A stretch of 45,563 nt of DNA from contig JAGGYC010000142.1 in the NCBI GenBank assembly GCA_021162745.1, positions 1 to 45,563 of the forward strand. Direction: 5' to 3'. Within the stretch, counting starts at the first letter, position 1. Each line of letters begins with the position of its first letter. This DNA is from Desulfuromonas sp. (lineage in GTDB: Bacteria; Desulfobacterota; Desulfuromonadia; Desulfuromonadales; Desulfuromonadaceae). Positions 14,011 to 30,550 of this stretch are shown here, piece by piece. Position numbers and translations under genes: made by a program. The notes under the pieces are model-generated. The model was not told the origin of the DNA and did no database searches. It saw only the letters and a program-made list of their open reading frames with translations.

Positions 14011-15858
14011 TTAAAAATTCAGGTTCAGCCCAGCCATGAAACGAACACCGTCATCAGGGTAACTCTGATGGAGCTCGTAATCGGCGTCCAGCAGGTTGTA
14101 GCCATTGAGATAGACCTCCCCGCCGAGCTGTTTCACAGTGATAGACCGAATCAGCTTAATATCAACCGTGCTGTACCCGGCCAGCCTGCGCTCCGCGCTG
14201 TTTTCCGGATCGGTATAGCGATGATTCGCGGCCCTGAGCGCAACCTCCAGCCTGGTTCCGTCAGCGAAGGATCTTTTTACGGTAATTTTCCCCTGATGCT
14301 CGGGGGTGTACGTCAGCGATCCGCCGGTCTCTTCATTCTCGCTCTTTTGCCAGATGTAGCTGATATCGACACCAAGCACTGCACTCAACTGGTATTTCAG
14401 CGCCAGTTCGAGACCCTGCCGCCAGGAGCTGGAAACGTTCTCCGGCCTGCTGATCAGGTCATTCCCGCGCACGTAGATAATCTGATCGCGATAGTCGCTG
14501 CGGAACAGGGTCGCCTGCACCGTCCGCCCCTTGTCGAAGCGGTGTTCAAGGCCCAGATCGCAGGCCCATACCTCCTCTTCATCCAGGTCAGGGTTACCCC
14601 TGGCCTGGTCGTAGGAGCCATGACTGCTCTGGTAGAGTTGCCCAAAGGATGGGGCGTTGACCGTATAGCCGATATTGACCTTGAACAGGCTCTTGGGTCC
14701 GAGCTCATAGCTTAATCCGCCGGTAAAGGCGGGAGCAAAATCGAAATCGTTGGTGTAATCGCCGCGCAGGCCGAGACTGCTCGCCAGCTTGCCGAAATCC
14801 CGATCGAGCTGGCCGCTCAGCGCCAGAGTCTGACGCCGATGCTCGCCGGTCATAGTGTAATCGATCGCTTCGGTTTCCCCCTGCCCTCCCAGCCGTAGCG
14901 CCCAGGCGCCGTCAGCGGCGGCCCAAGTGTTTTCCCCTTTAAGACCGATTTTGGTCACATCCAGTTCAGAGATTACCCCAGTCTGGGATTTGTCTTCGAG
15001 GTCGGTGCGATCGACATAGGCCTTAATCGAATACTCGCTGTTCTCTCCAGTCACCCCCTCCAGCCGGAAATCGAAGGCGGCCTTACTATAGTCCTGCCAC
15101 GCATCCGGGGTCGGGTTGTAGGTCGGCCCTGCGGAGCCATGTTCACTGATGTACAGGCGCCCATTGACTTCATAGCTGGTCAGCGCGGCGATCTTCCGGT
15201 CCCAGTGGAAACTGAACCCGCCGCTATCGCGATCGCTGTTGCTGCGCTTGCCGTCGTGATGCTTGGCGCTGGCGGTCAACATCATGCCGCCGTTGTGACG
15301 CGGAACCAACAAACTATAGCCCGCCGTCGCCACACCGTAAGACCCGCCGCTGAGCTTGAGGGTTGAGCTGTTGCGCCCGGCGGGCGACTTTTCCCTGGCG
15401 CTGCTGCGAGTTTCAATATTGATCGCCCCTTCAGAGGCTCCAGAACCGATCCAGACCGGAACGGGCGGCTTATAGACGGTGATCCGTTCGACCATATCGA
15501 TGGAGATATTGTTCAGGTTGACGCTGCCGTACTGGCTGGAATTGACCGGTCTGCCGTTGATCAGCACCAACACCCCGCTTCCTTTACCCGAGCCACGAAT
15601 GGAGATCGATGCGCCCATTCCCGCGCCCCGTTCCCGCACCTCGACGCCGGACATGCTGCCTAAGGCTTCACCCAGGTTGAAGAAATTGCCCTCGTCGATT
15701 TCGCTACGACCGAGGGAGACGACCCGTTGCGGATGGTTGCGGATATATTCGGTGATTTTTTTCGCAGTGACGACAAGCTCATCTAAAGAGACCACCTCGG
15801 CGCCTTCATGCCCTGCGGCCGTGACAGGCGACGTCACAGCAAAAGAGAACAGAGACAA
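14011..15858 (-). CDS. TonB-dependent outer-membrane receptor (second, HmuR-position)
   Basis: A 615-residue receptor with a TonB-box-like LDELVVTAKK near residue 28, a plug domain (RVVSLGRSEIDEGNFFNLGEALGSM..., VLINGRPVNSSQYGSVNLNNI, IEVRITVYK-like strand) and a 22-strand barrel ending in the usual aromatic residue (GLNLNF). The NAPSFGQLYQSSHGSYDQ..GNPDLDEEE stretch lies where haem and cobalamin receptors have FRAP/NPNL. It is the last gene of the cobN-DUF2162-exbB-DUF2149 block, the position of HmuR in Bacteroidetes haem loci. The start is odd: the only in-frame start is TTG; an ATG at 15877 beginning MKKILL fits a signal peptide but is one base out of frame. Substrate not determinable here. 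Confidence 0.85.
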   Translation of the reverse strand: MSLFSFAVTSPVTAAGHEGAEVVSLDELVVTAKKITEYIRNHPQRVVSLGRSEIDEGNFFNLGEALGSMSGVEVRERGAGMGASISIRGSGKGSGVLVLINGRPVNSSQYGSVNLNNISIDMVERITVYKPPVPVWIGSGASEGAINIETRSSAREKSPAGRNSSTLKLSGGSYGVATAGYSLLVPRHNGGMMLTASAKHHDGKRSNSDRDSGGFSFHWDRKIAALTSYEVNGRLYISEHGSAGPTYNPTPDAWQDYSKAAFDFRLEGVTGENSEYSIKAYVDRTDLEDKSQTGVISELDVTKIGLKGENTWAAADGAWALRLGGQGETEAIDYTMTGEHRRQTLALSGQLDRDFGKLASSLGLRGDYTNDFDFAPAFTGGLSYELGPKSLFKVNIGYTVNAPSFGQLYQSSHGSYDQARGNPDLDEEEVWACDLGLEHRFDKGRTVQATLFRSDYRDQIIYVRGNDLISRPENVSSSWRQGLELALKYQLSAVLGVDISYIWQKSENEETGGSLTYTPEHQGKITVKRSFADGTRLEVALRAANHRYTDPENSAERRLAGYSTVDIKLIRSITVKQLGGEVYLNGYNLLDADYELHQSYPDDGVRFMAGLNLNF

Positions 15859-15982
15859 CCAAAAGTATCTTTTTCATTTCAATTCCAATCCAAATAGCTC
15901 ACTGATTTAACGAAGACTGAACCTATAAACGTGCTGGTCTTTAACCGTTTGAGTTTCCATGCGTGTTCCCCCCAATGAACTC

Positions 15983-16339
15983 TTACTCGGGGACATAAAC
16001 CAGCGATCCATCCTTCATGCGGTAGGCGATGCCGAGACGTTCTCCCTGACCACTTGCCTTCTGCTTAGTGACCTTCATCGCTTTGATCTTTTGACCTTTT
16101 TTCGTAATAATCTCCATCTCGCCATTCTGGTTCTTCTTCATGATGGTGAAATCCGCTTTGGGGTCGAAAAGATCCTGAAGGTGATAGGCGGAAAACAGGG
16201 TCACAATCAGGGCGACGATAAACACCAGCCCGACATCGAAGAGATTGGCGACCGCCGCCATAGGATCCTCTTCGCTGATCGACTCGCTGTCATATCCTTT
16301 ACGACCGGGGGCCACCCGCCTTTTGGTGAAATATCTCAT
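15983..16339 (-). CDS. DUF2149 (ExbD/HmuV-like) membrane protein
   Basis: A 118-residue protein of the DUF2149 family. After a basic, cytoplasmic N-terminus (about 1-25) comes EDPMAAVANLFDVGLVFIVA with one transmembrane helix (about 34-53) and D35 at the start of it, in the place of the essential aspartate of ExbD/TolR. The C-terminal 60 residues (KADFTIMKKNQNGEMEIITK...) would be periplasmic. It overlaps the end of the ExbB-like gene by 4 bases (ATGA), so both are translated together. Together they form a proton channel-like pair that may energise the neighbouring receptor or the chelatase. The corresponding gene in Porphyromonas and Bacteroides haem loci is hmuV. Confidence 0.8.
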   Translation of the reverse strand: MRYFTKRRVAPGRKGYDSESISEEDPMAAVANLFDVGLVFIVALIVTLFSAYHLQDLFDPKADFTIMKKNQNGEMEIITKKGQKIKAMKVTKQKASGQGERLGIAYRMKDGSLVYVPE

Positions 16340-16989
16340 GCCGCCTGCGCCTCTGCCGTAACTTCGCTTTCCTCATCAATGGGGGTCTTCGAATAGTTTT
16401 GCGTGAGCACCTCGGTGGCCAGTTCCATGTTTTTGATATCTTCCTCAAGCCACCTTTTTTCTACGGTATGAAAGACGAAGGCGAGAATGCCGAGCGCCAG
16501 CCCCACCACCGTCGTGGTGAAGGCGATCACCAGATCGGAAGAGAGTTTAGTCATATCCCCCTGGCCCAGCGCAGCCAACCCAGTCCCCATAGGGATGAGA
16601 GTGCCGATCAGGCCGAAGCCGGGGCCAACGCGGACCACGATCATGAGCCGGTCGAGACTTTTCTTGATCTTCAGGATGCTTTCCTGCAGCAAGTTTTCCA
16701 CCTCCGCCTCCATCAGGCTACCCCCTTGTTTCAACACGATGTGCAAAGCAGCAATGTAATTGTTGACCCGATGACTAACAATCCCCGTATGGTTACCGTC
16801 ATTGATAATTCCGGTAAGGGTGCCGGTTTTGTATTTCCTGAGTCTCGTCCGCTCAATGTAATCGGCGCAAAAAGTGCCGATAAGTACAAGTATCCAGACA
16901 GTCAATATAGCGAGAAGCGCCAATACTGGGTAGAGAAGGGAAGAGGCAATAAGGTAAATGAAGGATTTAATCAACGCCATGATGTCCAT
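16336..16989 (-). CDS. MotA/TolQ/ExbB-type proton channel protein
   Basis: A 217-residue inner-membrane protein with the TolQ/ExbB arrangement: a first long hydrophobic segment (9-40), a cytoplasmic loop (41-120), then two paired helices GPGFGLIGTLIPMGTGLAAL (122-141) and LVIAFTTTVVGLALGILAFVFHTV (153-176). The conserved glycine/proline motif GLIGTLIPMGTGL matches the TolQ/ExbB core, as does the TTVVGLALG helix. It starts on the stop of the DUF2162 gene (TAATG) and overlaps DUF2149 by 4 bases. It lacks a normal ExbD partner in the window; DUF2149 occupies that place. Position matches hmuU of Bacteroidetes haem loci. Confidence 0.85.
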   Translation of the reverse strand: MDIMALIKSFIYLIASSLLYPVLALLAILTVWILVLIGTFCADYIERTRLRKYKTGTLTGIINDGNHTGIVSHRVNNYIAALHIVLKQGGSLMEAEVENLLQESILKIKKSLDRLMIVVRVGPGFGLIGTLIPMGTGLAALGQGDMTKLSSDLVIAFTTTVVGLALGILAFVFHTVEKRWLEEDIKNMELATEVLTQNYSKTPIDEESEVTAEAQAA

Positions 16990-17753
16990 TACTTAATACT
17001 CCTGATTTTAATTATTCTTGTTGCAAAGCCGATCATCCCGGCAGCGATGATGAATCCACAGAACAGAATCTGATTCTTTATATTAATGGTTGATACTTCG
17101 CCTTGGTATTGGGCGAGACGATAAATCTTGTCGATATCCCCAAACTGGGGCATGACGCTGACGGAGAGGCCGAAATAGACGGCAATAGCCACCATGAACA
17201 TCCCGAGCATGGTTTCCGGAGTTGCGTTCAGGCGCTTCTGCAGGATATTAAAGAGCGCAATGGAGATAAAATTAATGGCCATGAAGCCGACGTACATCAA
17301 AAAAACTGCCCTAGTTCCATCTTCAGGATAAAAAGAGAGAAGGAATGCCACGCTCATAAAAACCACTGTTCCACAGACGGGGCAAGGTACGGCCATGGTC
17401 AACCACCCGAAGCGCTTCCCGATCGAATCCTTTTCCCCCTCTTCTTTCTTTCCCCGCCTGAGCAGCGCGACACCCCAGATCGACATCAACCCGGCCAGCA
17501 GCAGGTGGAGGGACATACCGGACTTCATAAAGCCCTGCATGGCATCAAAATGCTGCAGGAAGTCGATGCGCTCAATGAATTCCATAGAGACGAAAAAGAG
17601 GAGAAAATAGATCAGACTATGCAGCACCAGTGCCACCGTCTGCGTTTTCCAACCCCGTTTCGCACTCAAAAAATAGCTCAGCCCTACACCGCTCTTAAAA
17701 GCAAAGACGCCGATGCTGAAAAACACCCCCAGCAATAAACTTTTTATTTCCAA
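16989..17753 (-). CDS. DUF2162 multi-pass membrane protein with a CPVC motif
   Basis: A 254-residue protein of the DUF2162 family (putative transporter) with about six to seven hydrophobic helices (for example residues 4-25, 37-56, 79-99, 118-140, 151-170, 182-200, 227-246). Residues 122-128 read VPCPVCG, a C-x-x-C pair (C124, C127) in a membrane helix, which could bind metal or be redox active. The start is TTG at 17753, supported by GGGAGGA about 9 bases before. It lies between the CobN-like gene and the ExbB-like gene in the same operon and corresponds to hmuT of Bacteroidetes haem loci by order. Function unknown; transfer of released metal or of the macrocycle is an inference. Confidence 0.75.
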   Translation of the reverse strand: MEIKSLLLGVFFSIGVFAFKSGVGLSYFLSAKRGWKTQTVALVLHSLIYFLLFFVSMEFIERIDFLQHFDAMQGFMKSGMSLHLLLAGLMSIWGVALLRRGKKEEGEKDSIGKRFGWLTMAVPCPVCGTVVFMSVAFLLSFYPEDGTRAVFLMYVGFMAINFISIALFNILQKRLNATPETMLGMFMVAIAVYFGLSVSVMPQFGDIDKIYRLAQYQGEVSTINIKNQILFCGFIIAAGMIGFATRIIKIRSIK

Positions 17754-17795
17754 AAGATTTTTCCTCCCAAATTCTCCAAAGAAACCGTCGTCGGC

Positions 17796-20700
17796 TTACC
17801 CCTCGCTCCGTGAGCGCCGACGGTGCCGAATCCCCAAAACCACCGCGAGCATGATTCCAAGAACAAAGAGGGAAGCAAGCCACTGCACCCCAGAAGAGGT
17901 CATCTGCGTCGATTCGTCCTCGTTGCGCACCTCTTCCATCTTGTACCCCTCGACAACATCCTGCTCCTGTCCTTCGTCCGACCGCTGGGCCTTATCCTTT
18001 TGAGGCTGCTGCTGTTGTTCCTGCTCAATCTGTCGTGAACTCTCTTTGACGAATCCCGCCACAAGCTGTTTCTGCAGAGCTTGGTGATCCTCCACCTGTT
18101 GTTCAAGAGTCTTCTGAGCCATCTTTTCGATCGCCATTTTGAAGCGCTCCACCATCTCGGGGCTGAGCACCCCCGGAACGGAGACGATATTTACCACCAT
18201 CTGATTGAGAGCGGGGTTGTTGCAGGTGTGATCGCAACAGGCGACACCTTTTTCCACCATGCTCACGGCGTATTCCACCGCCAGCTTCTGGGTCACCTTT
18301 TCTTCGGCCTGCCAGTAGTCCTTGCGCACCGCCTCCAGCATGCGAGCAGTCAAGGACTGGTAGGCCCAAGGGTTATTTTTGTTGAAAAACTCCTTCAGTT
18401 CCTGACCGTACTTGTCCTCAACGTAGACCTCGAAGGTCTGCTCCCAGCGCGCCTTGTCCATGGCATCGGGGACCGTCACCTGCCAGCCCCACATATACTC
18501 CACAAACTTAGCCATTTCCCGGGCACCTGCGTAGTTCTCTTTCTTCATCCCCTCGATCCACTCGGGGTTCAAATAGCGGGTCCGCAACTCACGGCCAATG
18601 GTCTTGGCGAGCTTCTCCACCCTAACCTCACCCCGTTTGCGCTGCATGGTCACCCGGGTATCAGGAGCCTGCCCTCGCACATTTTTCACCGCCAACGACA
18701 AGCCACCAAGATACTGAAAGAAATCGTCGTTATCCATGGTGCCGTAGACATTGGAGGAGATGGAATGCACCGCCGTATCTACATCCCGGAGGTTTTCTCG
18801 AAACGCCTGTTTCACCGGGACGCCCCACTTGCCGCCGCCGATGGCAAACTGGCTGCGATTCATGAACACCTTGGAAATCTCTTCATCCGATTCCCAGAAT
18901 CCGGAAGCCCCGACCATTTCAGATACGCCGTTGCCATAGGAGCCTGGTTTTTCGGTGAAAATCCGGAAACGGGACTGCTCTTGTGCCTCCTGTTCGCTCA
19001 TACCGGCCTCTTTCAAGGCCTTCTTGATGCGGGCGGTGTTTTTCACCAGCAGGTTCTCGATATCGGTCTGAACAAGAGCCTTTTGAATCGCCGTGTCGAT
19101 AAATAGAAGCTTGTCAGGAAAAAGATCGCGATAGAGCCCTGAGGGGTTGATGAGAACATCAATCCGGGGCCGACCCAGCTCCTTGCCGGGGATAACGCGG
19201 GTCCCTTTCACTCTGCCGGCGGTATCCCACACCGGCTCTAAGCCGATGAGATAGAGAATGGTGCTTTCGTTGAGCCCCTCGTTGCGGATGGTTTCCACGG
19301 CCCAGAGCACCATGGCCACTTTTTCCGGATACGTTCCGTCCTCCTTCAATTTCTGCTCGATCAGATCGATGGCCGCCTTTTTCCCCAGCTCCCAGGCCGC
19401 TTTTGACGGCACTTTGGCGGGTGAAAAACCGTAGAAGTTTCTCCCGGTGGGGATGGAAGCCCTGTTACGTATGGGATCGTTGCCCTCTGCGGCGGGGATA
19501 TAACGGCCGTTGAGAGCCCGGATGTAGTTATCCATCTCCTGCCGAGCTGAAGCGGCCAGATCTGCTTCCACCCGGGTGCGATCCTCATCGGGGTTGGCTT
19601 TCATGATCAGCGCAACCGTATCTCTGGCCGCCTGTTGCGAATAAGGGGTGCCGAAGGTATGTATCCCGTATGGCAGGCTATTCGTGTCGATTTCATGCAG
19701 GAACCCATCCAGAGCCATTACCGCTTCAGCGTCGAATCGCTCCAGCCCCAGGTCTTTCAACAGGCCCAGTTTTGTGGCCAGAGCACTTAACTCTTCAAGA
19801 TAGGCTGCGGCGGTTGAGCCCCCTCTGGCTTTAGCCAACTCATACTTTTCCATCAACTTTTTGAGTTGGGCATACTCATTGTAGAGATCCGCTTCTTTCA
19901 TGGGAGGGGTCAAATGGCCTATGATCACACCTCGCCCACGACGCTTGGCCTGAATCCCCTCCCCCACGTCATCGATGATGTAGGGATAAATGTTGGGAAT
20001 TGCACCTATCAGCACCTCCGGCGGATCGGATGGAGCCAGGGCCACCTGTTTACCCGGCAACCATTCGTGGGTCGCATGGGTACCCAGATGCACCATGGCG
20101 TCAGCGCCGAATTTTTCCGACAGCCAGAGATACGCGGCAATGTACTGATGATGGGGATAAAGGGTGGGATCGTGATACAGCTTCATGGGGCTGTCACTCC
20201 ATCCCCGGGAGGGTTCCGGCATCAGCACCAAGTTCCCCAGTTTCACCATGGGAAAGATGAGATCGCCATCCTTGGTCATAATCTCGCTGGTTTCCGGTCC
20301 ACCCCACTGAGCCAGCACTTTGCTGCGGAAATCTTCCGGCAGTTTTGCAAACCATAGCTTATATTCCTCTATGGGAACCCGCACTGCGTCACCAGCGGCA
20401 AGCATAGCGTCCAGTTCCCCCGGCGCCCACGAACCGATGTTACGTCCCGTCTTCAGGATCATCTCCTTGATGCTTTTTTCGGTCAGCTTTCCGGTGCCTT
20501 CAACCCGGTAACCTTCCTGACCCATCCGCTTGAGCATCGCCTGAAGGCTGCGGAAAACATTGAGGTAACTGGCCCCGATATTGTGCTTGCCCTGGCTGTG
20601 ATTGTAATAAAGGATGGCCACCTTCTTTTCCGCGTTGGCTTTGCCCTGCAAAGCCGCCCACATTTGCAAACGCGGTAGTAGCATATCAAGGGTTTCGTCG

Positions 20701-21740
20701 ATGGTTGCATAGACATACAAAGTCTTGCCGGTCTGCGGATCAGTATAAGAGCTCTTACCACACAGAAGCGTCGGTTCAATGGCTCCGGCTGTTTCGGGGT
20801 TGTCTACCGCCCAGGCGGTTTCGATGGGAGAAAGTCCGATGGGACTTTTACGCCAGTCGTCGATATCCCCGGCATAGGAGCGAATCACATTGAACACAGG
20901 AATATCCAACTCTTGGATGTCCCGTCTGACCTGTTCGTTCAGGGCAGACCAGAATTTCAAGGTAAAGGCCAGCAACATATCCACCGGTGCCTTGCCGTCA
21001 ACCCGTTTCAGGTATCTGTTCAACACCGGTCCCGGAGAACCAAAGCAAGGCAACACGTTGAATCCGGCCTTTTCAACCTTGCGGATAACCTCTGCAGCCG
21101 CCTCGACCTGGCCTTGCTGCAAGGTGGAGACAAAAAAACAAAGCCCCACCCAGCGGCTGTGCTCAGAATAGCCGGCGCTGGTGGCATACCAGGCCTTGTA
21201 ATCCTGCAACGAAGAAAACCGCTGCGGCGCGTCAGGGTGGTAGAGGCAATCATTCTCAATGAGCTGCAGCGAACCATAGCTGACCGCCGGGTCGATCTTT
21301 TTGTGAACCGCCAGCCGCACCATGTTGGCGACATTGTCAACGCTTAAGTTGTCGAAGTAGGCACTGATCTGGGGATCAAATACAAACCCCTGCTTCTGCA
21401 GCGCCTTATCATCCCGAGAACCACGCAGGGCATAAATGGTCCGCCCTGCGACCAACCCTTCTTTTATCAGATAGTCACTTAGGGAAGGACTCATCACATC
21501 GACAAGAATCACGGAAGAATTGGCAAGAAACGATCGCGGCTGCGAGTTGTCCGTTAACTCGTTGAGGGTAAAAAAACGCGCATCGATGGATGACGGCAGA
21601 TCGAGGGACTGCAGCGCCTGTTGGGCCAGGTAGCTGTTGGTCTCAATCACCAGCAGGGAAAGTTTTCCGGCCAGGGTGATAGTCGGCGTCAAAACAACGA
21701 GCAAGAAGGCGATCAGGAAAAGTCGTTTCATATAAATCAT
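17796..21740 (-). CDS. Exported, membrane-anchored CobN-like chelatase (HmuS type)
   Basis: A 1314-residue member of the CobN/BchH large chelatase subunit family. The core motif HLGTHATHEWLPGKQ lies near residue 549, followed by IIDDVGEGIQAKRRGRG, both characteristic of CobN; NPSGLYRDLFPDKL and WESDEEISKVFMNRSQFAIG are further family landmarks. Unlike cytoplasmic CobN it has a signal peptide (MKRLFLIAFLLVVLTPTITLAG) and a C-terminal helix (1285-1304) followed by RHRRRSRSEG, so the body should face the periplasm. A Gln-rich segment (about 1240-1265) precedes the anchor. No CobS/CobT or ChlI/ChlD ATPase is present nearby. Family knowledge: HmuS-like proteins remove iron from haem; CobN inserts cobalt. 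Here B12-related neighbours leave both options open. Confidence 0.88.
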   Translation of the reverse strand: MIYMKRLFLIAFLLVVLTPTITLAGKLSLLVIETNSYLAQQALQSLDLPSSIDARFFTLNELTDNSQPRSFLANSSVILVDVMSPSLSDYLIKEGLVAGRTIYALRGSRDDKALQKQGFVFDPQISAYFDNLSVDNVANMVRLAVHKKIDPAVSYGSLQLIENDCLYHPDAPQRFSSLQDYKAWYATSAGYSEHSRWVGLCFFVSTLQQGQVEAAAEVIRKVEKAGFNVLPCFGSPGPVLNRYLKRVDGKAPVDMLLAFTLKFWSALNEQVRRDIQELDIPVFNVIRSYAGDIDDWRKSPIGLSPIETAWAVDNPETAGAIEPTLLCGKSSYTDPQTGKTLYVYATIDETLDMLLPRLQMWAALQGKANAEKKVAILYYNHSQGKHNIGASYLNVFRSLQAMLKRMGQEGYRVEGTGKLTEKSIKEMILKTGRNIGSWAPGELDAMLAAGDAVRVPIEEYKLWFAKLPEDFRSKVLAQWGGPETSEIMTKDGDLIFPMVKLGNLVLMPEPSRGWSDSPMKLYHDPTLYPHHQYIAAYLWLSEKFGADAMVHLGTHATHEWLPGKQVALAPSDPPEVLIGAIPNIYPYIIDDVGEGIQAKRRGRGVIIGHLTPPMKEADLYNEYAQLKKLMEKYELAKARGGSTAAAYLEELSALATKLGLLKDLGLERFDAEAVMALDGFLHEIDTNSLPYGIHTFGTPYSQQAARDTVALIMKANPDEDRTRVEADLAASARQEMDNYIRALNGRYIPAAEGNDPIRNRASIPTGRNFYGFSPAKVPSKAAWELGKKAAIDLIEQKLKEDGTYPEKVAMVLWAVETIRNEGLNESTILYLIGLEPVWDTAGRVKGTRVIPGKELGRPRIDVLINPSGLYRDLFPDKLLFIDTAIQKALVQTDIENLLVKNTARIKKALKEAGMSEQEAQEQSRFRIFTEKPGSYGNGVSEMVGASGFWESDEEISKVFMNRSQFAIGGGKWGVPVKQAFRENLRDVDTAVHSISSNVYGTMDNDDFFQYLGGLSLAVKNVRGQAPDTRVTMQRKRGEVRVEKLAKTIGRELRTRYLNPEWIEGMKKENYAGAREMAKFVEYMWGWQVTVPDAMDKARWEQTFEVYVEDKYGQELKEFFNKNNPWAYQSLTARMLEAVRKDYWQAEEKVTQKLAVEYAVSMVEKGVACCDHTCNNPALNQMVVNIVSVPGVLSPEMVERFKMAIEKMAQKTLEQQVEDHQALQKQLVAGFVKESSRQIEQEQQQQPQKDKAQRSDEGQEQDVVEGYKMEEVRNEDESTQMTSSGVQWLASLFVLGIMLAVVLGIRHRRRSRSEG

Positions 21741-21827
21741 CCCGGTCAGGGCACGGCGAACCGTGCCCTGATTTATGTAGTCAACAGGTCAGAATACGGC
21801 AGGCAGATCAAGCCCCCTCTTCCAATG

Positions 21828-23840
21828 TCAATGGGCCTGGAAACAGATCCCGTTCATAAGACTGTTGAGGGCCTTATGCAGCACAACCGGCAGGCCATCC
21901 AGCTCAATCAGGTCTGTCATCGGTCCGATCGGCCGACCGGCGATCTCCTGCGCAATGGCATTGCACCACATGTCAAAGGCCCCGAGGTCGCTGACCAGGC
22001 CCTTTTCGTAATCGTCACTGATGGTAAAGGCCGCTTCGATAAAGTTGGCGTAGCGCGATTGCAGCAGCAGATCCTCCAAAGCGGCGATGCGCTCTTTGCG
22101 GGTCATGCCGTTCTCGCATGTCTCGCTGACGACAAGGCTATGGGGGCTGATCTTCCGCTCTTTGAGGCGACGGAACACCGTGCGCTCACCGACAATGCCG
22201 TTCTGCTTGTACACCGCTTCGCGCACCCCCGCGTAAACCGCTTTGGAGATCAGCTCACCCATCTTGGTGTGTCCCCCGGCGTTTTCGATGAGGGTTCCCG
22301 TTCCCTGAACCACCAGAACGTTGTCGGTGCCTGTTCCGGTCGCTTTGTAAATCCGGGCGCTATAACTGCTGCGGATGTCCATGTCCATCAGGGCGGCGGT
22401 TTTTGCTTCGGTCGCTGAGATAATCGCCCGGGTCATGGCCCGTAGGGCAAGCTGCATGTTGGTCATGATGAGGACATTGATCGTCCCCGGCTCGTAATAG
22501 CCGCCCAGATCTTTCGACATGCGCAGGGCGTTGTGCTCAACCCCGGCGGTGACCAGCGCAAACACTTCCATGTCCTGATATTTCTCGCTTTTGACGGCCA
22601 GATTGTCCATGTCCGCACCGGTAAACAAAAAGCAACCCGTCTCCTGCGACACGTCAATGGCGTCATAGGTTTCGGCACGGGACACTTTAAGCCCCTTTTT
22701 GTGCAGCATATTCCAACAGGGCGGGGGAGTATAATTGTTGCCGACGGTCATGATGCCGCTTCGCTGCCCCTCCAGGGTGGAGACCACCGTCATGGGCTGT
22801 TTGAAGTCGACGATGAGACTTTTGTAGCCGAAGTCGTTGATATTGCTATAAGCAATGCGCGCATCCTTGACGTACGGCAGCTCCAGATCGATGGGACGGG
22901 TCCGCGTGACACCGGTTTCAAGAACCAAGTTATCGGCGTCGGAAAATTCCTCCTCGTAAATATTGGCGGAAAGCCATTTGACGAAATAACCGATATTGGT
23001 CGCGGCACGGCAGGTCAGCTCGCAGGGGTAGCTGAAAAAGCATTTATCGGCAACGGCGGGAACATCCTTCCAGCCGGGCTGGGTCAACAGCGGGATGGCC
23101 GCCGCCTTATCGTTTCCGCAGCCGTAAAGAACCTGGGGATTGTAATTCGTCCACTCCTCTTCAGTGACCTCAACCACATTCCCCTGCTTGCCAAAGTGGG
23201 GAGCAATTCCCCCGGCGGCGGCAATGAGTTCATTCTGAAAGGTATCTTCTCCGGGGGTCATGATGGAGTCACTGCACATGACACGCATCACCCTTTTCCG
23301 TTTTTCAGCCGGGATCTTGGCCACCTTCGCGGCAATGAGGCGCAGCTCTTCCTGGTTCTTCTTGACCAGGCACACCGCGTCCTCTTTTCGGTCAAAGGTG
23401 TCGCCGAGAAGCAAAATGTTTTCAAAGGCGTCGTCAAGGGAATGAGGTTCAAGGGCAATAAGCGGGATATTCTCCTTACTGAAGCGCTGGCGAACCCCCT
23501 TCTGCAGGGAGGAATAGAAAATCACATCGGGCTTGAGCTGCGCCACCCGGTCCAGGTTCGGGGTAAAGAAGCCGCCCACAGTCTGCTTACCCGCCGTCTG
23601 AGGAGGATAGGTGCTGTGGTAAGTGATGGCAGTGACCGCATCTTGAGCCCCGAGCCGCAGAATCGTTTCGGTGATGGAGGGGACCAGGGAAACAGCCCGT
23701 TGGGGCCGTTCCGCAATGGTGATGTTCTGCCCCTGGCTGTCGGTAAAGGTGACCGGGTAAGCAAAGACCACTGCGGTGCTCAAAAAAGCAACGATGAAGA
23801 AAACGGATGACAACAAGTTTTTAAATGAAGTGTTCAACAT
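21828..23840 (-). CDS. Exported BtuF-CbiZ fusion: corrinoid binding plus amidohydrolase
   Basis: A 670-residue two-domain protein. Residues 1-27 are a signal peptide (SSVFFIVAFLSTAVVFA). Residues about 28-310 form a BtuF/FepB-type binding domain (ERPQRAVSLVPSITETILRL, LKPDVIFYS, WKDVPAV). Residues about 330-560 match CbiZ, adenosylcobinamide amidohydrolase: VTAGVEHNALR near 429, GTINVLIMTNMQLALRAMTR, TEAKTAALMD, KATGTGTDNVLVVQGTG near 500 and GHTKMGELISKAVYAGVREA. A further 120 residues follow. CbiZ normally cleaves the side chain of adenosylcobinamide to give cobyric acid for salvage; here it would act in the periplasm. The ATG at 23840 is preferred to the TTG before it (GGGAG upstream). It is followed 88 bases later by the CobN-like gene. 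Confidence 0.85.
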   Translation of the reverse strand: MLNTSFKNLLSSVFFIVAFLSTAVVFAYPVTFTDSQGQNITIAERPQRAVSLVPSITETILRLGAQDAVTAITYHSTYPPQTAGKQTVGGFFTPNLDRVAQLKPDVIFYSSLQKGVRQRFSKENIPLIALEPHSLDDAFENILLLGDTFDRKEDAVCLVKKNQEELRLIAAKVAKIPAEKRKRVMRVMCSDSIMTPGEDTFQNELIAAAGGIAPHFGKQGNVVEVTEEEWTNYNPQVLYGCGNDKAAAIPLLTQPGWKDVPAVADKCFFSYPCELTCRAATNIGYFVKWLSANIYEEEFSDADNLVLETGVTRTRPIDLELPYVKDARIAYSNINDFGYKSLIVDFKQPMTVVSTLEGQRSGIMTVGNNYTPPPCWNMLHKKGLKVSRAETYDAIDVSQETGCFLFTGADMDNLAVKSEKYQDMEVFALVTAGVEHNALRMSKDLGGYYEPGTINVLIMTNMQLALRAMTRAIISATEAKTAALMDMDIRSSYSARIYKATGTGTDNVLVVQGTGTLIENAGGHTKMGELISKAVYAGVREAVYKQNGIVGERTVFRRLKERKISPHSLVVSETCENGMTRKERIAALEDLLLQSRYANFIEAAFTISDDYEKGLVSDLGAFDMWCNAIAQEIAGRPIGPMTDLIELDGLPVVLHKALNSLMNGICFQAH

Positions 23841-24030
23841 CAAATCTCCCGGAAGGGTCGATCGGCCCGTTCATGGAATCCCCTGAAAAACAGATCGCCC
23901 GTCCGTCCACGGCAAGCCGACCTATCTCGGCATTCATGGCGTGCATTCAAAGAATCCATCGTATGAAACCATTACGGGATGGCCAAGCAAGCAGCGCAAT
24001 GGCCTCGAATCTATTTCTTGAATTTAAACA

Positions 24031-24061
24031 GCCAGGCCGAGGTGTTACGCCCCGGCCTGGC
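24031..24061 (-). terminator. Hairpin after btuB
   Basis: GCCAGGCCGAGG and CCCCGGCCTGGC form a 12 bp stem with one mismatch, 28 bases after the btuB stop codon, followed on the minus strand by CTGTTTAAATT. This would reduce read-through into the BtuF-CbiZ operon, which then needs its own promoter in 23844-24030, where no clear one was seen. Confidence 0.55.
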
Positions 24062-24088
24062 CAGTCGATCAACGTGCGTTGACAAGTC

Positions 24089-26053
24089 TTAGTAGGTGTA
24101 TTTCAACCCAACAAAGAACGTTCTGCCCGGCATGGGATAACCGAGGACATACGCATAGTCCTTATCAAACAGGTTGTCGATCTCCCCTCTCAGCGACAGG
24201 GCGCCTGCCCCTTCCTTCTGGAAGAGTTCCTTTTCGAGGGTCAAATCGGCAATAGTAAAACCACCTTTTTTCACATCACTATAAGGCCAGCTAGAGTAAT
24301 CGGTTACGGTCTGCTCACCGGTATAAGCGAAATTCAGCTTGGCATTGAAGCCGTTGAGATCGCTGAACTTCAGACCGTAAGAGGCATTGATATCCGAGAT
24401 GTAGAGCAGATCGTCGCCAGTTTCATCATCTTCATATTCGTCGAGGTAGACAATGTTGCCATAGGCTTCCAGCCCGAAGCCCCAAGAGAACAGGGCGCCA
24501 AGATCCGTTGAGAAATCCCCTTCGCAGCCTCTGATGGTCGCTTCGCCGAGATTTTTCCAAGTCTTGACACCATCATGTTTAACCGAAACGATCTTATCCT
24601 CGAAATCGGTGTAGAAGTAGGTCACTGAAGCCTTAGAGGCGTCAAAGATGAAATCGACGCCCGCTTCATAGGTTTTACTTTTTTCAGGATCCAGATCCGG
24701 ATTCCCCAGGTAGTGAGTACTGCCGGAGACGTAATCCGCTGACAGTTGGTCGGCATCGGGAATCACGAAGGCTTCACCGTAGTTCACGCGCAATTTCACG
24801 TTGTCGTTCAGCAGATAGGCCACACCGGCGGTCACGTTCAGATCGTCATCATCCTGCTCGCCACCGCTATCACCCGACATATCCAGTTCGTAGCTGTCAA
24901 AACGCAGGCCACCGGTGAAGATCAGGCGGTCATTGAGGAATTTTGTCTTGCCAAGCAGGATGTACGCCAGGCTGTCATACTCGGTTTCCATGGCGCTCCA
25001 GGAGGTATCCACCTCATAGTCGGCCCAATCAATGCCCGCCGTCAGCAGGGTGGAGCCGAAGTTGCCGGTCACTTGCGCCTGGGCGCCCTGGCTGTCGGTA
25101 TCCCGTTTAGAAGGGATGCCGTTATCCCAAAAGGTGGGGTTGCTGGCAACGGGATCGTGCCATTCGGATGTATCTTCGCCGAAGAAATAACGACCCATCC
25201 AAGAGAAACGCTTATCGGCCGTCGCCCCTTCATAGGTGAAATCGACGGAATGGTTCTCTTTGTTGGAGAAATTATCGAGGTCGTTCTTGGCAATGTTGCC
25301 GGGATTACCGGCCTTATCGGAGTCAAAATCGGTGTAGATGATGCCAAAGCGGTTGTTCGGCAGAAACTCATAACCAAGGTTTACACTGGCATTGGTTCTT
25401 TTATCATAGCCGGTGTTGTGGAACTTGTCGCCGTCACCGGTATCGTAGTCATCCATGGAGGATTCACTGATGCTACCGGAAAAATCGACCCCTTTGACTT
25501 TAGCTGAAAATCCTACGCTCATCTCTTCATAACCGTAGCTTCCCAAGCCGCCTTCGACAAAGAACTCGGGCACGTCTTTACCCTGCTTGGTAATGACGTT
25601 GATAACGCCACCCATACCGGCCGAACCATACTGCACACCGGCGGGGCCACGAATAATTTCAACCCGTTCGATATTCTTGGTCATGATCTGGGCCAGGTTG
25701 CCGGTGCCGGAGCGTCTGCCATCAAGCAGCAACAGAATGTGACCACGCAAATCGTTGCCGTGGCTTTCGGTTTTGAAGCCACGGATACCGACGGAGGTCA
25801 GAGACCCCGGGTACTTATGGATATGGCCGACATTCAGGTCCGCCAGCAGGTCACCAAGATCCCTCGCCGAAGAGGATTTGATCTCCTCTTGAGAGATGAC
25901 AACGATGTTGGCAGTAACATCTTTTTTACTTTCTTCCACCCTGCTGGCGGTAATGACCATTTCGTCCAGGGTTGTGGCGGCCATGCCAGCCAGGGCGGCG
26001 CCCGGCAGAGCCATAGCCGCCAAGAGTGCGGATAAAACCAACTTCTTTTTCAT
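24089..26053 (-). CDS. btuB: TonB-dependent cobalamin receptor (BtuB-like)
   Basis: A 654-residue outer-membrane receptor. The start at 26053 is chosen because GGAGG lies upstream and it begins a clean signal peptide (MKKKLVLSALLAAMALPGAALA). A TonB-box-like TTLDEMVITASR follows, then the plug domain (VVISQEEIKSSSARDLGDLL, GHILLLLDGRR, IERVEIIRGPAGVQYGS, GGVINVITK) and the barrel, ending KYTY. A FVIPDADQLSADYVSG..GNPDLDPEKS stretch is in the region conserved in BtuB. The B12 riboswitch and terminator immediately upstream are the strongest evidence for corrinoid transport. It is the first gene after the riboswitch in the minus-strand island. Confidence 0.9.
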   Translation of the reverse strand: MKKKLVLSALLAAMALPGAALAGMAATTLDEMVITASRVEESKKDVTANIVVISQEEIKSSSARDLGDLLADLNVGHIHKYPGSLTSVGIRGFKTESHGNDLRGHILLLLDGRRSGTGNLAQIMTKNIERVEIIRGPAGVQYGSAGMGGVINVITKQGKDVPEFFVEGGLGSYGYEEMSVGFSAKVKGVDFSGSISESSMDDYDTGDGDKFHNTGYDKRTNASVNLGYEFLPNNRFGIIYTDFDSDKAGNPGNIAKNDLDNFSNKENHSVDFTYEGATADKRFSWMGRYFFGEDTSEWHDPVASNPTFWDNGIPSKRDTDSQGAQAQVTGNFGSTLLTAGIDWADYEVDTSWSAMETEYDSLAYILLGKTKFLNDRLIFTGGLRFDSYELDMSGDSGGEQDDDDLNVTAGVAYLLNDNVKLRVNYGEAFVIPDADQLSADYVSGSTHYLGNPDLDPEKSKTYEAGVDFIFDASKASVTYFYTDFEDKIVSVKHDGVKTWKNLGEATIRGCEGDFSTDLGALFSWGFGLEAYGNIVYLDEYEDDETGDDLLYISDINASYGLKFSDLNGFNAKLNFAYTGEQTVTDYSSWPYSDVKKGGFTIADLTLEKELFQKEGAGALSLRGEIDNLFDKDYAYVLGYPMPGRTFFVGLKYTY

Positions 26054-26088
26054 ACTTCTGTGCCTCCAGAAAATGATATTTCCGGGGT

Positions 26089-26129
26089 AAAAAAAATCCC
26101 CGGATCGTAATAATACGACCTGAGGATTT
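26089..26129 (-). terminator. Riboswitch-controlled intrinsic terminator before btuB
   Basis: On the minus strand, AAATCCTCAGGTCGTA and TACGATCCGGGGATTT form a 16 bp stem (one mismatch, G-U pairs) with a 4-base loop, followed by eight T. It lies between the B12 aptamer and the btuB ATG, so it is the expected expression platform: closed when B12 binds. Confidence 0.85.
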
Positions 26130-26187
26130 CCCTTTTTTATCCACAAGTATGCTGCCGACACTTGTCCAGAGAATCGGCAAATATAAC

Positions 26188-26347
26188 CTTTCAGGCAGGT
26201 CTTCTGACTTTCGGATCATCCTACTAACCGCGCCTTCCCGTCCATTTTAGACAGTGACATTATACGGTGTTCGTCCCCGATTACAGCGGTGGGCCCGTCC
26301 CCGATTTTCACGGGAGTTCCCATTTAAGCTCAATGAGCGCCTGAAAG
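26188..26347 (-). promoter_or_regulatory. Cobalamin riboswitch upstream of btuB
   Basis: On the minus strand the region has the B12 box (GTCAGAAGACCTGCC), the GCCGCTGTAA-like core (CACCGCTGTAATCGGGGACG), and GGGAA..CCCGTGAAAATCGGGGACG. The P1 helix closes with CTTTCAGGC at the 5' end (26347 side) and GCCTGAAAG at the 3' end. Together with the downstream terminator this indicates repression of btuB and perhaps the following operon by adenosyl- or other cobalamin. Confidence 0.93.
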
Positions 26348-26764
26348 ATTGGTGATTTTTTTCGCTAAATAACAATCCTTTTCAAATCAAGAGAATAAAC
26401 TCGACGCAACAACGTCATCCCAAAACTACCGCAATTTAATCAAGCAGGGTCCATGCCAAACAGCGCCCCCCCCAAAAAAGCACACGGCGCCATGAGAGAT
26501 AACCCATTATTTTACTGACGCTTCTCAACATTATTTTTTACGCTGTGGGGTCTAAAAGCGATAAGCCTGGGAGGATGCCATTTTGATACAAACTGAGAAA
26601 ATGGTACATTTTTCGGGAAAACCACGAAAAAATGGGGGCCCCTTCCCCCGACCACTGACAACCTCAACAGAAAAATTCGCGTGTCCCCATTCCCAGTTCC
26701 AGGCTAAAAAAAAAACGACAACTATCCGTATCCGGACAATGAAGCAACATGGAGCCTGTCCACC
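26348..26764. other. Gene-free stretch between btuD and the btuB riboswitch
   Basis: No credible coding frame. It should contain the promoter for the riboswitch transcript near 26350-26400 (minus strand), where TTGATT and TTGAAA boxes exist but no well-spaced -10 box is convincing. The sequence GGGGGCCCCTTCCCCCG near 26635-26652 forms a G/C-rich self-complementary patch. Confidence 0.4.
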
Positions 26765-27556
26765 TTACCTCAGAAAGCGTTTCGGAACGAGATGAACCCT
26801 CGGGTAGTTACCCACAGAGCTCATATCCACCATCAGGTTACATTCGTACACCCTTTCCAATAACTCCTTGTTAAGCACCTGATCCGGCGCCCCCATACAG
26901 GCGATCTGCCCCCGCGAGAGAACCAGCACCTGGTCGGCATACATGGCGGCCAGATTCAACTCGTGGGAGATCATCACCACCGTGATGCCATGGTCGTTTT
27001 TAAGCGTTTCCATCAGATCCATGATGCGCGCCTGATGGGCCAGATCCAACGCCGAGGTGGGTTCATCCAAAAGCAATATTCGAGGCCTTTGGCAAATGGC
27101 ACGAGCAATCAACACTCGCTGCCGCTCACCGCCGGAAAGCTCATCCAGCCGCCGATCGGCCAAGTGGATGATATCGGTAATCATCATCGCCTCCTGGGCC
27201 AGTTCCAGATCCTCAGGCGTTTCAACGCCCAGCATCCCCAAATGGGGGGCCCGCCCCATAAGCACCACTTCGGTAACGCTGAAGGGAAACTCAACGAGCA
27301 CATTTTGAGGCACATAAGCGACCTGCTGGGCCAGCGCCCTGGGATTGTAATCCTTTAAACAGCGCCCCATGACCGTGATGTCGCCATCCTGGGCAGACAG
27401 CAGGCCGGTCAGCAATTTGAGCAGGGTCGTCTTGCCCGAACCGTTGGGGCCGATGATGATAAAAAATTGCCCAGCCGCCACATCAAAACAGATTCGGTCA
27501 AGAACAGTACGCCGTCCAAACGATTGAGTCAGGTTTTCTACCGAGATTGCCGTCAT
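26765..27556 (-). CDS. btuD: Corrinoid ABC transporter ATP-binding protein BtuD
   Basis: A 263-residue ABC ATPase. Walker A is GPNGSGKTT, the Q-loop is in YVPQNVLVEFPFSVTEVVLMG, the signature is LSGGERQRVLIARA, Walker B is RILLLDEPTSALD, and the switch His is in VMISHELNLAA. The FSVTEVVLMGRAPHLG segment is typical of the FecE/BtuD group for iron-siderophore, haem and B12. The reading frame has GTG-ATG at the start; ATG is used. It follows btuC after 37 bases and closes a btuF-btuC-btuD operon. Substrate assignment rests on the B12 riboswitch upstream and the surrounding corrinoid genes. Confidence 0.88.
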   Translation of the reverse strand: MTAISVENLTQSFGRRTVLDRICFDVAAGQFFIIIGPNGSGKTTLLKLLTGLLSAQDGDITVMGRCLKDYNPRALAQQVAYVPQNVLVEFPFSVTEVVLMGRAPHLGMLGVETPEDLELAQEAMMITDIIHLADRRLDELSGGERQRVLIARAICQRPRILLLDEPTSALDLAHQARIMDLMETLKNDHGITVVMISHELNLAAMYADQVLVLSRGQIACMGAPDQVLNKELLERVYECNLMVDMSSVGNYPRVHLVPKRFLR

Positions 27557-27593
27557 CACAATGGTCCAATCGGTCCGGGGTTGAGGGGGCCGG

Positions 27594-28601
27594 TCACGTG
27601 TTCGACTTTTTCAGTAAGTAAACAAACAGGGGGGCTCCGATCATCGCCGTCACAACGCCCACCGGCATCTCCCCCTGTTCGGGCAACGTGCGGGCAAGGG
27701 TATCACAGATCACCAGAAACGCGGCGCCCCCCAAAATCGATGCCGGGGTCAGAATACGGTGATCCGAGCCCAAGGCCAGCCGCAACATGTGAGGCATCAC
27801 CAGCCCGACAAAGCCCACCAGCCCGCAATAGCTTACTGTCGCGCTGACCATCAAGGTGGTGACCAGCAACAACAGGGTACTGGTAGCCTTGACATTGACC
27901 CCCATGCTCCGGGCCATGTCATTACCCAGGGCAAACAGATTCATGGCGTGGGAACGGGTAAAAATTACCACAAAGCAAGGGACCACAGTCACCCCCAAGG
28001 CGATCACATTACCGATATTGGCGGCAGAAAGATCGCCCATGAGCCAGAAAAGGATATTGTGCAGGCGGCTGTCCTGGGTCATGGAAACCAAAAACATAAT
28101 GATCGCCGAACAAAAGGCATTGACCATTACACCAGACAACAGCAGGTTGTTGGTCCACAACCGGGCACTTTGCGAAGCCATGATATAGAGCACCATCAGG
28201 GTAGTGAGGCTGCCGGCAAACGAAGTCAGCCAGACGCCGGGAAAACGCGACAATCCCATCAGGATGCCGATAATGGCACCGATAGCCGAACCACCGGAAA
28301 TCCCGAGGATATAGGGTTCGGCAAGGGGGTTGCGCAACAGGGCCTGGAACACCATCCCCCCCAGGGAAAGGGTGGCCCCCAGAAAAGCGGCCAACAGCAC
28401 CCGCGGAAAGCGCAAACGCCAGACAATATCATGGAGCAGCGACCCTTCACCCGTTCCCGTCAGTCCCTGAATCACCGGCGTTAACGCAAAACCGGCGGAT
28501 CCCGTGGCCAGGCCCAACACCATGACGACAGCCAGAATCACCATCAGGACCAGGGAGACCAGGACCATTCGCCGCACAAGCGCCGAGGTGGCAAAACTCA
28601 T
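27594..28601 (-). CDS. btuC: Corrinoid ABC transporter permease BtuC
   Basis: A 335-residue FecCD-family permease with about ten hydrophobic helices. Family landmarks: RFPRVLLAAFLGATLSLGG, FQALLRNPLAEPYILGISGG, a WLMGDLSAAN segment and VGFVGLVMPHMLRLALGSDH, the coupling-helix region contacting the ATPase. The ATG at 28601 is used because it overlaps the btuF stop (ATGA) and follows GGAGAG. It imports the substrate delivered by BtuF. The GC content and codon use resemble the rest of the island. Confidence 0.9.
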   Translation of the reverse strand: MSFATSALVRRMVLVSLVLMVILAVVMVLGLATGSAGFALTPVIQGLTGTGEGSLLHDIVWRLRFPRVLLAAFLGATLSLGGMVFQALLRNPLAEPYILGISGGSAIGAIIGILMGLSRFPGVWLTSFAGSLTTLMVLYIMASQSARLWTNNLLLSGVMVNAFCSAIIMFLVSMTQDSRLHNILFWLMGDLSAANIGNVIALGVTVVPCFVVIFTRSHAMNLFALGNDMARSMGVNVKATSTLLLLVTTLMVSATVSYCGLVGFVGLVMPHMLRLALGSDHRILTPASILGGAAFLVICDTLARTLPEQGEMPVGVVTAMIGAPLFVYLLKKSNT

Positions 28602-29521: not shown

Positions 29522-29630
29522 TGTTCTGACTCCACAAATTTCGGGGGCAACGTATCGCTCGATCATATTCCAACCATACCTCTTTACACGCCCTCTGCGC
29601 TACCCGGCTTACGGCTTATGGCTTACAAGG

Positions 29631-29880
29631 TCAATGAACAGGCGGCGCCATTTCAAAAAATCGTCCCGTTCCGGCTGCAAATTTATCGTTCACCTTGATA
29701 TCCTGCCCGCCGATATTGCTGACGGTACGGACCCCTTTGATGCTTAAGAGAAACACCCCCAAAGCGTTTGCAGAGACTTCATCGATCACCTTATGAACAT
29801 TGTGCATCAAACTCTTGCCATAACCGGTCACCGCGATCCCTTCAATATCATTGCGGTCCAGGGAGCGTTCGGCCCTACAC
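29631..29880 (-). pseudogene. Fragment of a BadF/BcrA/HgdC-type ATPase activator
   Basis: The minus-strand frame reads RNDIEGIAVTGYGKSLMH, then ISANALGVF-like EVSANALGVFLLSIKGVRTV, SNIGGQDIKV and NDKFAAGTGRFFEMA. These are landmarks of the acyl-CoA dehydratase/benzoyl-CoA reductase activator family (IGGQDSK and NDKCAAGTGRFLE). About 20 residues that should lie between IGGQDIKV and NDKFAAGTGRF are missing, the N-terminal ATP site is lost, and the conserved Cys of NDKCAAGTG (an Fe-S ligand) reads Phe. It is a decayed remnant, ending 110 bases before btuF. It probably was the first gene behind the B12 riboswitch at 30.4 kb. Confidence 0.7.
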
Positions 29881-29884
29881 TGAC

Positions 29885-30309: not shown

Positions 30310-30375
30310 CCGAATTTAAAGCACCTTCAAATGCCACGTCCCGTACCAAGGGAGACTACTGTGGCGATGTCCGTT

Positions 30376-30525
30376 AAGGCAGGTCTTCTGGCTCGCGAAT
30401 CTTCCTCAGGGCTCCCTTCCCAACCTCAACGGTCAGTGGTTTCAAGCCCTTCGTCCTCGCTTACAGCGGCGGGTCCGCGGGGGATTTACACCCCTCTTCC
30501 CTATTAAGCCCTAGACGGGCACCAT
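30376..30525 (-). promoter_or_regulatory. Cobalamin riboswitch 2
   Basis: The minus strand reads, 5' to 3', CTAGGGCTTAATAGGGAAG, GGACCCGCCGCTGTAAGCGA, GGACGAAGG and the B12 box GCCAGAAGACCTGCC, all hallmarks of the cobalamin aptamer. The outer P1 helix is less clear than in the copy at 26.2 kb. A terminator follows; beyond it are the unidentified element, the activase fragment and btuFCD. Confidence 0.92.
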
Positions 30526-30550
30526 GGATATCAATATTTAATTTTACGGC

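Follow-up and report, generated by a model that had tools for sequence, protein, structure and literature searches.

A B12-riboswitch-associated module encoding an exported CobN-like chelatase and a BtuF–CbiZ fusion in Desulfuromonas sp.

Introduction

HmuS of Bacteroides thetaiotaomicron is reported to be a heme de-chelatase that removes the metal in an NADH-dependent manner (PMC12583661). It belongs to the hmuYRSTUV system of Bacteroidota, which combines a TonB-dependent receptor, an exported and doubly anchored chelatase, a polytopic membrane protein, an ExbB-like protein, and DUF2149 (PMC12583661); hmu operons with DUF2149 are iron-regulated (PMC10434189). The locus described here, on a contig of Desulfuromonas sp. 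(GCA_021162745.1, JAGGYC010000142.1; "the window" denotes the whole stretch of 45,563 nucleotides), encodes a module with all of these components, but it has DUF2162 in place of HmuT, and its surroundings contain cobalamin riboswitches and a CbiZ domain. We consider it probable that this module is directed at cobalt or corrinoids, and not at heme only.

Rocha et al. credit Rodionov et al. (2003) with BtuS, a third type of CobN, associated with metalloporphyrin salvage (PMC6460266). Tests published under that name concern heme iron in Bacteroides, including poor growth of a Bacteroides fragilis double btuS mutant on heme iron, and the word "riboswitch" is absent from the main text of that paper (PMC6460266); two BtuS proteins have been named in Methanosarcina barkeri (PMC10846266). 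Like BtuS, the window protein is an exported CobN-like protein outside the CobN and ChlH groups. The module is a variant within this previously proposed third CobN type, not wholly new, and probably includes what the name BtuS was coined for.

In Chlorobium, as in the window, chelatase genes (cobN and bchHID) and cbiZ lie near cobalamin receptors and riboswitches, although bchI and bchD genes are present there, whereas the window has ExbB, DUF2149, and DUF2162 (PMC8620254). For chelatases encoded beside a cobalamin receptor in Chlorobaculum (green sulfur bacteria), insertion of cobalt into acquired cobalamin has been speculated (PMC8620254). B12 elements precede cbiK and the candidate cobalt transporter gene cbtX in delta-proteobacteria (PMC545781), a paper in whose main text neither "cobN" nor "cbiZ" appears. 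An initial annotation of the window, made from the sequence alone, suggested that a chelatase and an amidohydrolase both act on a corrinoid outside the cytoplasm, and knew of no established pathway of this kind. A literature search covering few subscription journals found no paper on DUF2162 and, among the papers listed, none on an exported BtuF–CbiZ together with an exported chelatase, which does not prove that there is none; BtuS and the Chlorobaculum speculation precede the idea.

Results

Module content and linkage with cobalamin riboswitches

The window comes from a draft genome (2.9 Mb, 163 contigs, 97% complete), and its DUF2149 has its closest named match in a Desulfobacteraceae metagenome-assembled genome (88% identity). 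In Pfam, Rfam, and open reading frame (ORF) scans of the window, all module parts lie on the minus strand at approximately 14011–26359 (Table 1). Rfam, Pfam, and hydropathy agree with the content and order given by the initial annotation: a cobalamin riboswitch, btuB, a BtuF–CbiZ fusion, a CobN-like chelatase, DUF2162, an ExbB-like protein, DUF2149, and a second TonB-dependent receptor. Its comparison of the chelatase-to-receptor block with hmuRSTUV also stands as regards gene content.

Within the phylum, DUF2162 is above cut-off in 36 of 395 genomes. Loci were drawn from 38 DUF2162 places and 80 DUF2149 loci with named records (the best 80 of at least 407 confirmed relatives), and were therefore picked by DUF2162 or DUF2149 and not by B12 genes, although they are related to each other. 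With ten duplicates and four loci without DUF2149 excluded, 105 non-duplicate loci with DUF2149 remain, the window included; module genes recur in the 104 others, the full set not being present in each. A BtuF–CbiZ fusion occurs in the block in 45/105 loci, and any CbiZ in 54/105. Forty-nine DUF2149 loci have 5 kb or more of sequence on each side; within 7 kb, ExbB is found in all 49 of these, CobN in 47, DUF2162 in 35, and a TonB-dependent receptor in 35, and 31 have a CbiZ anywhere in the locus. Conserved-neighbor clustering was swamped by antisense ORFs; CbiK (32/109 loci), TonB, and ExbD were taken further.

Cobalamin riboswitches are present in 69/105 loci, as counted with a model built from 31 riboswitches that were first found by Rfam and are themselves included in the count. 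Weak matches at L104 (25 bits), L115 (25 and 34 bits), L107 (34 bits), and L135 (22 bits) are also included, and those at L069 (position 11424, 25 bits) and L051 (position 8666, 17 bits) are not. In 18 loci the riboswitch is directly before a core gene (L135 through a 38-nt fragment where a contig ends, and L077 and L126 despite gaps of 616 and 437 nt; ORFs were called mechanically, so that starts and gaps are rough), in 37 before a receptor or CbiZ gene heading the block, and in 14 elsewhere. Direct examples are L046, with a riboswitch 120 nt before the chelatase, and L132, with one 71 nt before DUF2162. Of the first 38 loci, many have a cobalamin riboswitch by Rfam (L068–L070 being outside that scan), and Rfam agreed with our model at 13/13 positions in seven loci. 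In total, 100 riboswitches were found in 108 loci (in 72 of them), compared with 3.4 expected at the density of the Desulfuromonas genome itself (six cobalamin riboswitches per 2.9 Mb). By taxon group, assigned by hand from record titles, riboswitches accompany the module in 6/9 loci of Planctomycetota and 5/8 of Betaproteobacteria. No cobalamin riboswitch was found in three HmuS loci or in a locus of Runella slithyformis (see below), and Trichlorobacter lovleyi has three matches, two of them just before the module receptor. Closely spaced pairs of riboswitch matches on the same strand 5′ of the module or receptor occur in L052, L058, L061, L105, L111, L123, L127, and L139.

The corrinoid surroundings noted in the initial annotation are therefore real and recurrent. 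The possibility it had raised against itself, that the chelatase group might cluster only with heme loci and have no link with B12 genes in other genomes, is contradicted by these counts and by the failure of HmuS-specific features described next.

The exported chelatase

The window chelatase, the only CobN-family protein of its genome, belongs to the same family of class-I catalytic subunits as CobNST and ChlHID/BchHID. Unlike these it appears to be exported and anchored, with hydrophobic segments at residues 7–25 and 1286–1304 (hydropathy only, no signal-peptide predictor); the N- and C-terminal anchoring of HmuS also fits this protein by hydropathy. Among chelatase ORFs of at least 1200 amino acids (aa), the N-terminal hydrophobic segment is found in 76/84 and the C-terminal one in 83/84. 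The key residues are His555, Asp1006, and CCDHTC at 1168–1173. On alignment to the solved structures 9d26 (HmuS), 7c6o (CobN), and 4zhj (ChlH), the best solved relative by sequence is HmuS, followed by CobN. His555 corresponds to the superfamily residue His538 of HmuS (domain III) and is kept in 85/85 module rows of the alignment. The C-terminal motif is CCxHTC in 69/85 module chelatases and C-x4-C in 84/85, and the HmuS proteins of Bacteroides finegoldii and Prevotella do not have these cysteines.

The features described as specific to HmuS are a methionine-rich insertion, Met79, His254, and LSLDHxxEFMGG with His1209 (PMC12583661). The window chelatase does not carry LSLDHxxEFMGG with the axial His1209; it has TMDNDDFFQYLGG, with Asp1006 at the place of His1209. 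Asp is found there in 83/85 module rows (the other two have Gly) and, as a feature of the present alignment and not a published definition of CobN, in 5/5 B12-type CobN rows, whereas His is found in 3/3 HmuS rows, 2/2 BchH rows, and the solved HmuS 9d26 and ChlH 4zhj. The HGR motif in the neck (with His254 as heme ligand, followed by Gly and Arg) is present in 3/3 HmuS rows and not in the window protein, in a loosely aligned region. The insertion place holds 22 residues in the window protein compared with 132–321 in the three HmuS; the CobN rows have 84–136 residues there, so that length alone is not specific to HmuS, and only the Prevotella insertion is strongly methionine-rich (31 Met). The head domains, in which the heme ligand Met79 lies, have diverged too far for a confident alignment at that residue. 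Because of the short insertion stretch, the lack of HGR, and Asp for His1209, the window protein is not assigned to HmuS, and a heme-only role is unlikely.

A quick maximum-likelihood tree (56 rows, midpoint-rooted) splits the exported enzymes from CobN/BchH (support 99); among the former, HmuS is set apart from the rest (support 97). The branch of Runella is long and its placement unsure. A Cupriavidus row (L182) was left out of the tree because of a wrong reading frame. HmuS rows were labeled by an adjoining HmuY, and CobN rows by B12-synthesis neighbors in three cases and by homology only in Streptantibioticus and Sinorhizobium (records unannotated there). By sequence, the window chelatase is thus related to HmuS, yet lies in a clade separate from both HmuS and CobN.

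ExbB, DUF2149, and DUF2162

The ExbD-like Asp of DUF2149 and the CPVC motif of DUF2162, both pointed out in the initial annotation, are present (Asp35 and residues 124–127, respectively). Candidate proton-path residues are kept across loci: Asp35 in 34/34 DUF2149 proteins, and Thr130 in 37/37 and Thr158 in 36/37 ExbB proteins; we take these to have a proton-path role by analogy with ExbBD. No ATP motor gene (CobST/ChlID) is above cut-off among the scanned window ORFs, and of 11 places in the genome that match PF01078, the strong one is on another contig. Because of this absence and the constant linkage of ExbB and DUF2149 with the chelatase, we infer that they form a proton-gradient motor for it, in place of the ATP motor of CobNST and ChlHID/BchHID. 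They need not be the TonB energizer, since separate TonB genes occur in 24/109 loci and ExbD genes in 22/109, with both following the module on the T. lovleyi plasmid. Among 14 control genomes, the only DUF2149 match is in Methanosarcina acetivorans, an archaeon without an outer membrane, which also has genome-level matches to CobN and DUF2162; for DUF2162, M. acetivorans and M. jannaschii match, just one of the two above cut-off.

DUF2162 has CPxC in 39/39 sequences and His83 in 38/39. Its AlphaFold2 (AF2) model has a predicted local distance difference test score (pLDDT) of 83. In profile comparison with HmuT, DUF2162 gives a weak C-terminal match (probability 25.6%).

On a plasmid of Runella slithyformis (L154:5287-13321), a receptor, a permease-like protein, ExbB, DUF2149, and a CobN-like chelatase lie within a hyp operon, between hypF and hypC. 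The protein at the place of DUF2162 is annotated as "urease accessory protein" and carries HAFEADH, which we take to be the motif of NiCoT/UreH permeases. This locus suggests a nickel version of the module. Azospirillum brasilense, with NikR nearby, was dropped as a further nickel context after our model gave a riboswitch match (64 bits) between the module and ABC genes, which leaves Runella alone.

The BtuF–CbiZ fusion and B12 genes of the genome

The fusion combines a substrate-binding domain (Peripla_BP_2, E 4e-18) with a CbiZ domain (E 8e-51; PF01955, 173 bits vs. gathering 27). CbiZ remodels cobinamide and pseudocobalamin in archaea and Rhodobacter (in part PMC8620254). The window protein shares the CbiZ domain, which is above the Pfam cut-off, and differs in its fusion to a BtuF-like domain and its predicted export. 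The N-terminus is hydrophobic by hydropathy, as in 44/45 long fusions of module loci. The structure model (pLDDT 86) has fold matches to periplasmic metal, heme, or B12 substrate-binding proteins; among the 50 matches listed none is for the CbiZ domain, for which no solved relative by sequence was found among the matches listed. In some loci (L050, L057, L062), the ORFs of the chelatase and the fusion overlap or adjoin. Rhodocyclales and relatives have further CbiZ fusions close to the module, with a carbon–nitrogen hydrolase or DUF4019 as the partner (L100:13589-15946, L107:5258-7285, L109:6168-7406, L125:2922-4586).

The genome also has CbiD and CobS, and two CbiK homologs (L176:7076-8062, L177:1063-1962) that start with signal-peptide-like segments as judged by eye. 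One comes after a cobalamin riboswitch, and the other is the first gene of a cbi cluster that also encodes a membrane protein resembling the Gate domain (below cut-off). In this genome no CbiX match was found outside one of the two CbiK proteins, and CbiB was not found in the incomplete draft. CbiK genes with signal-peptide-like starts, again by eye, also lie near the module in L088, L104, L112, and L080.

Discussion

Proposed function and alternatives

We propose that the module is a B12-regulated branch of exported class-I chelatases for cobalt or corrinoid salvage. The TonB-dependent receptors would supply the periplasm with a corrinoid or another chelate of cobalt, and there BtuF–CbiZ would bind corrinoids and cleave the aminopropanol amide to give a cobyric-acid-type product for the ATP-binding cassette (ABC) importer. 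The anchored chelatase would act on the metal center of the cobalt complex, where it would most likely extract cobalt in the way that HmuS extracts iron. ExbB and DUF2149 would link the chelatase to the proton gradient, replacing the CobST/ChlID motor, which runs on ATP and so could not operate outside the cytoplasm, where there is none. DUF2162 may be the membrane passage for the released metal, or for electrons, and so supply cobalt insertion by CbiK-type enzymes. Removal is favored as the direction because HmuS removes metal, because the Runella module lies among hyp genes and includes a permease-like protein, and because CbiK recurs near the module; proton-gradient-driven cobalt harvesting in this sense is plausible, though short of probable, and it overlaps with a two-substrate alternative considered below.

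Several observations weigh against parts of this proposal. Cobalt in corrins is very inert, and stripping it would destroy a corrinoid that the cell lacks, while CbiZ makes foreign corrinoids reusable; removal would therefore fit a non-corrinoid cobalt chelate better, none being known here. In 17/105 loci no riboswitch was found although 700 nt or more of upstream sequence is available (a further 19 have none but lie less than 700 nt from a contig end), and the Sphingobacteriaceae have none (0/3). Asp at position 1006 is no proof of a corrinoid substrate, since Runella also has it; among other plasmid-borne relatives, Diaphorobacter, Pseudoalteromonas, and Trichlorobacter have Asp as well, and A. 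brasilense has His there yet lies near a riboswitch match. DUF2162 is absent within 7 kb in 14/49 DUF2149 loci, its fold search (Foldseek, VIA) turned up mostly helical membrane proteins, none of them significant (E 0.095, Z up to 9.3), and profile comparison with the Runella permease-like protein detected no homology (probability 0.2%), the NicO and DsbD_2 matches of the latter being below cut-off. In addition, the B. fragilis double btuS mutant has more, not less, free porphyrin, which misfits simple metal removal (PMC6460266).

The main alternative as to direction is insertion or exchange, whereby the same machine, working in the periplasm, would supply cobalt to imported corrinoids that lack a metal or carry the wrong one, with BtuF–CbiZ preparing or delivering repaired cobyric acid to the ABC importer. 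The active-site Asp common to B12-type CobN, the fusion of BtuF with CbiZ and its export, and the two CbiK-type cobaltochelatases of this genome with signal-peptide-like starts, which point to cobalt chemistry outside the cytoplasm, are in keeping with it, as is the earlier speculation for Chlorobaculum (PMC8620254). HmuS and the hyp-operon relative, however, point to removal, the present data document no supply of metal-free corrinoids, and insertion would need no permease partner; we regard it as unlikely, though worth serious consideration. A different partition is possible, and merits nearly as much weight as a coin toss would give it: the first receptor, BtuF–CbiZ, and ABC importer would salvage corrinoids, and the second receptor, chelatase, and DUF2162 would take cobalt from a non-corrinoid chelate, the two arms sharing control because both relieve B12 shortage. 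Such an arrangement is compatible with either removal or insertion, so that our confidence in these readings overlaps. It would account for riboswitch loci without CbiZ and for the recurrence of CbiK, and a possible attenuator parts btuB from the rest in the window; the overlapping or abutting chelatase and fusion ORFs of some loci suggest instead a common step.

Ordinary heme-iron acquisition of the HmuS type beside B12 genes would explain why HmuS is the best solved-structure match and why the gene content is like hmuRSTUV. Names assigned by NCBIfam also lean this way in part: the best match of the first receptor is a heme/hemoglobin receptor model (182 bits), followed by BtuB (167 bits), all below cut-off, and the ABC ATPase scores above the cut-off of a heme ABC model (271 vs. 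261 bits). We have therefore given slightly more weight to heme and slightly less to the exclusion of a heme-only role. The receptor names are weak, the listed NCBIfam matches of both receptors being under their cut-offs; the best for the second receptor is TonB-B12 (115 bits vs. a cut-off of 600), and the ABC permease and binding protein match best to B12 models, below cut-off. Three HmuS-specific features failed, the riboswitch linkage of the module compares with 0/3 HmuS loci, and no HmuY turned up in Pfam scans of the window ORFs, no search having been aimed at it. The heme-only explanation, demoted to a minor rival by the riboswitch linkage and the failed features, is in our view very improbable. 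A further alternative concerns DUF2162 alone, which might be a DsbD/CcdA-like electron carrier that reduces the metal for the chelatase, with C-x4-C near the C-terminal anchor as acceptor, and not a metal permease. The near-invariance of both cysteine motifs agrees with this, as does the NADH dependence of HmuS (PMC12583661); against it are the fold search of DUF2162, the lack of the cysteines in the HmuS of B. finegoldii and Prevotella, and the ability of Cys/His sets to bind metals too, and we consider it rather unlikely.

Returning to cobalt salvage by an exported chelatase, a broader generalization, which we offer as speculation and think unlikely to hold in full, is that ExbB/DUF2149-linked, proton-driven class-I chelatases constitute a general extracytoplasmic machine, with sister forms for iron (heme, HmuS), nickel (the hyp operon of Runella), and cobalt (the B12-switched branch, stripping or exchanging the cobalt of imported, CbiZ-trimmed corrinoids). 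If the proposal is correct, sulfate reducers, anammox bacteria, and Rhodocyclales would carry out metal chemistry on B12-type compounds, or free cobalt from chelates, outside the cytoplasm. The module makes ATP-free working of class-I chelatases testable, and in genomes of this kind a gene annotated as "CobN" does not necessarily imply aerobic B12 synthesis or heme use.

Regulatory elements and neighboring features of the window

The window has two RF00174 riboswitches, both at or above the gathering score (Table 1). The hairpin following the first is likely the expression platform of the btuB riboswitch, and the true start of the btuB-like receptor, as read from the sequence, is likely the ATG at 26053. 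The 245-nt gap between btuB and the fusion contains a 14-pair hairpin (24063–24029) that is a possible attenuator; whether one transcript runs here from the riboswitch into the chelatase gene is consequently uncertain, and control of the chelatase group by the riboswitch would, on the evidence of the window by itself, be an indirect reading.

Table 1. Features of the module and adjoining genes, with positions in the window.
Feature	Position	Strand	Evidence
Second TonB-dependent receptor	14011..15858	-	Pfam
DUF2149, ExbD-like, one hydrophobic segment with Asp35	15983..16339	-	PF09919, 118 bits
MotA/TolQ/ExbB-like proton channel	16336..16989	-	PF01618, E 6e-13
DUF2162 polytopic membrane protein, His83, CPVC at 124-127	16989..17753	-	PF09930, 118 bits
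Exported, membrane-anchored CobN-like class-I chelatase, 1314 aa	17796..21740	-	PF02514 (CobN/Mg_chel), 1056 bits
Exported BtuF–CbiZ fusion (substrate-binding and adenosylcobinamide amidohydrolase domains)	21828..23843	-	Pfam, hydropathy
Hairpin rich in GC, weak T tail, in the gap between btuB and fusion	24029..24063	-	14 pairs, 10 GC
btuB-like TonB-dependent receptor	24089..26161	-	Pfam barrel and plug
Terminator hairpin with U tail	26088..26135	-	Fold -22.8 kcal/mol, z -6.2 vs. 200 shuffles
Cobalamin riboswitch 5′ of btuB-like gene	26177..26359	-	RF00174, 111.6 bits (gathering score 31.5)
btuD, btuC, and btuF-like ABC importer genes adjoining the module	26765..29566	-	Pfam
Terminator-like hairpin after second riboswitch	30311-30275	-	Hairpin
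Second cobalamin riboswitch, 5′ of btuFCD	30361..30541	-	Rfam, 114.8 bits

Further elements surround the second riboswitch (29640–31740, minus strand). Between it and btuF, Rfam finds group II intron sequence, and a fragment resembling a BadF-type activator was recognized by eye. An ORF of the IS1595 type (insertion sequence) with a zinc ribbon lies 5′ of this riboswitch. Farther along, a single ORF on the plus strand (37619–39712) encodes an ABC-transporter ATPase together with an AMP-binding, phenylacetate-CoA-ligase-like enzyme, and adjoins a thiamine pyrophosphate (TPP)/ferredoxin oxidoreductase gene and branched-chain permeases.

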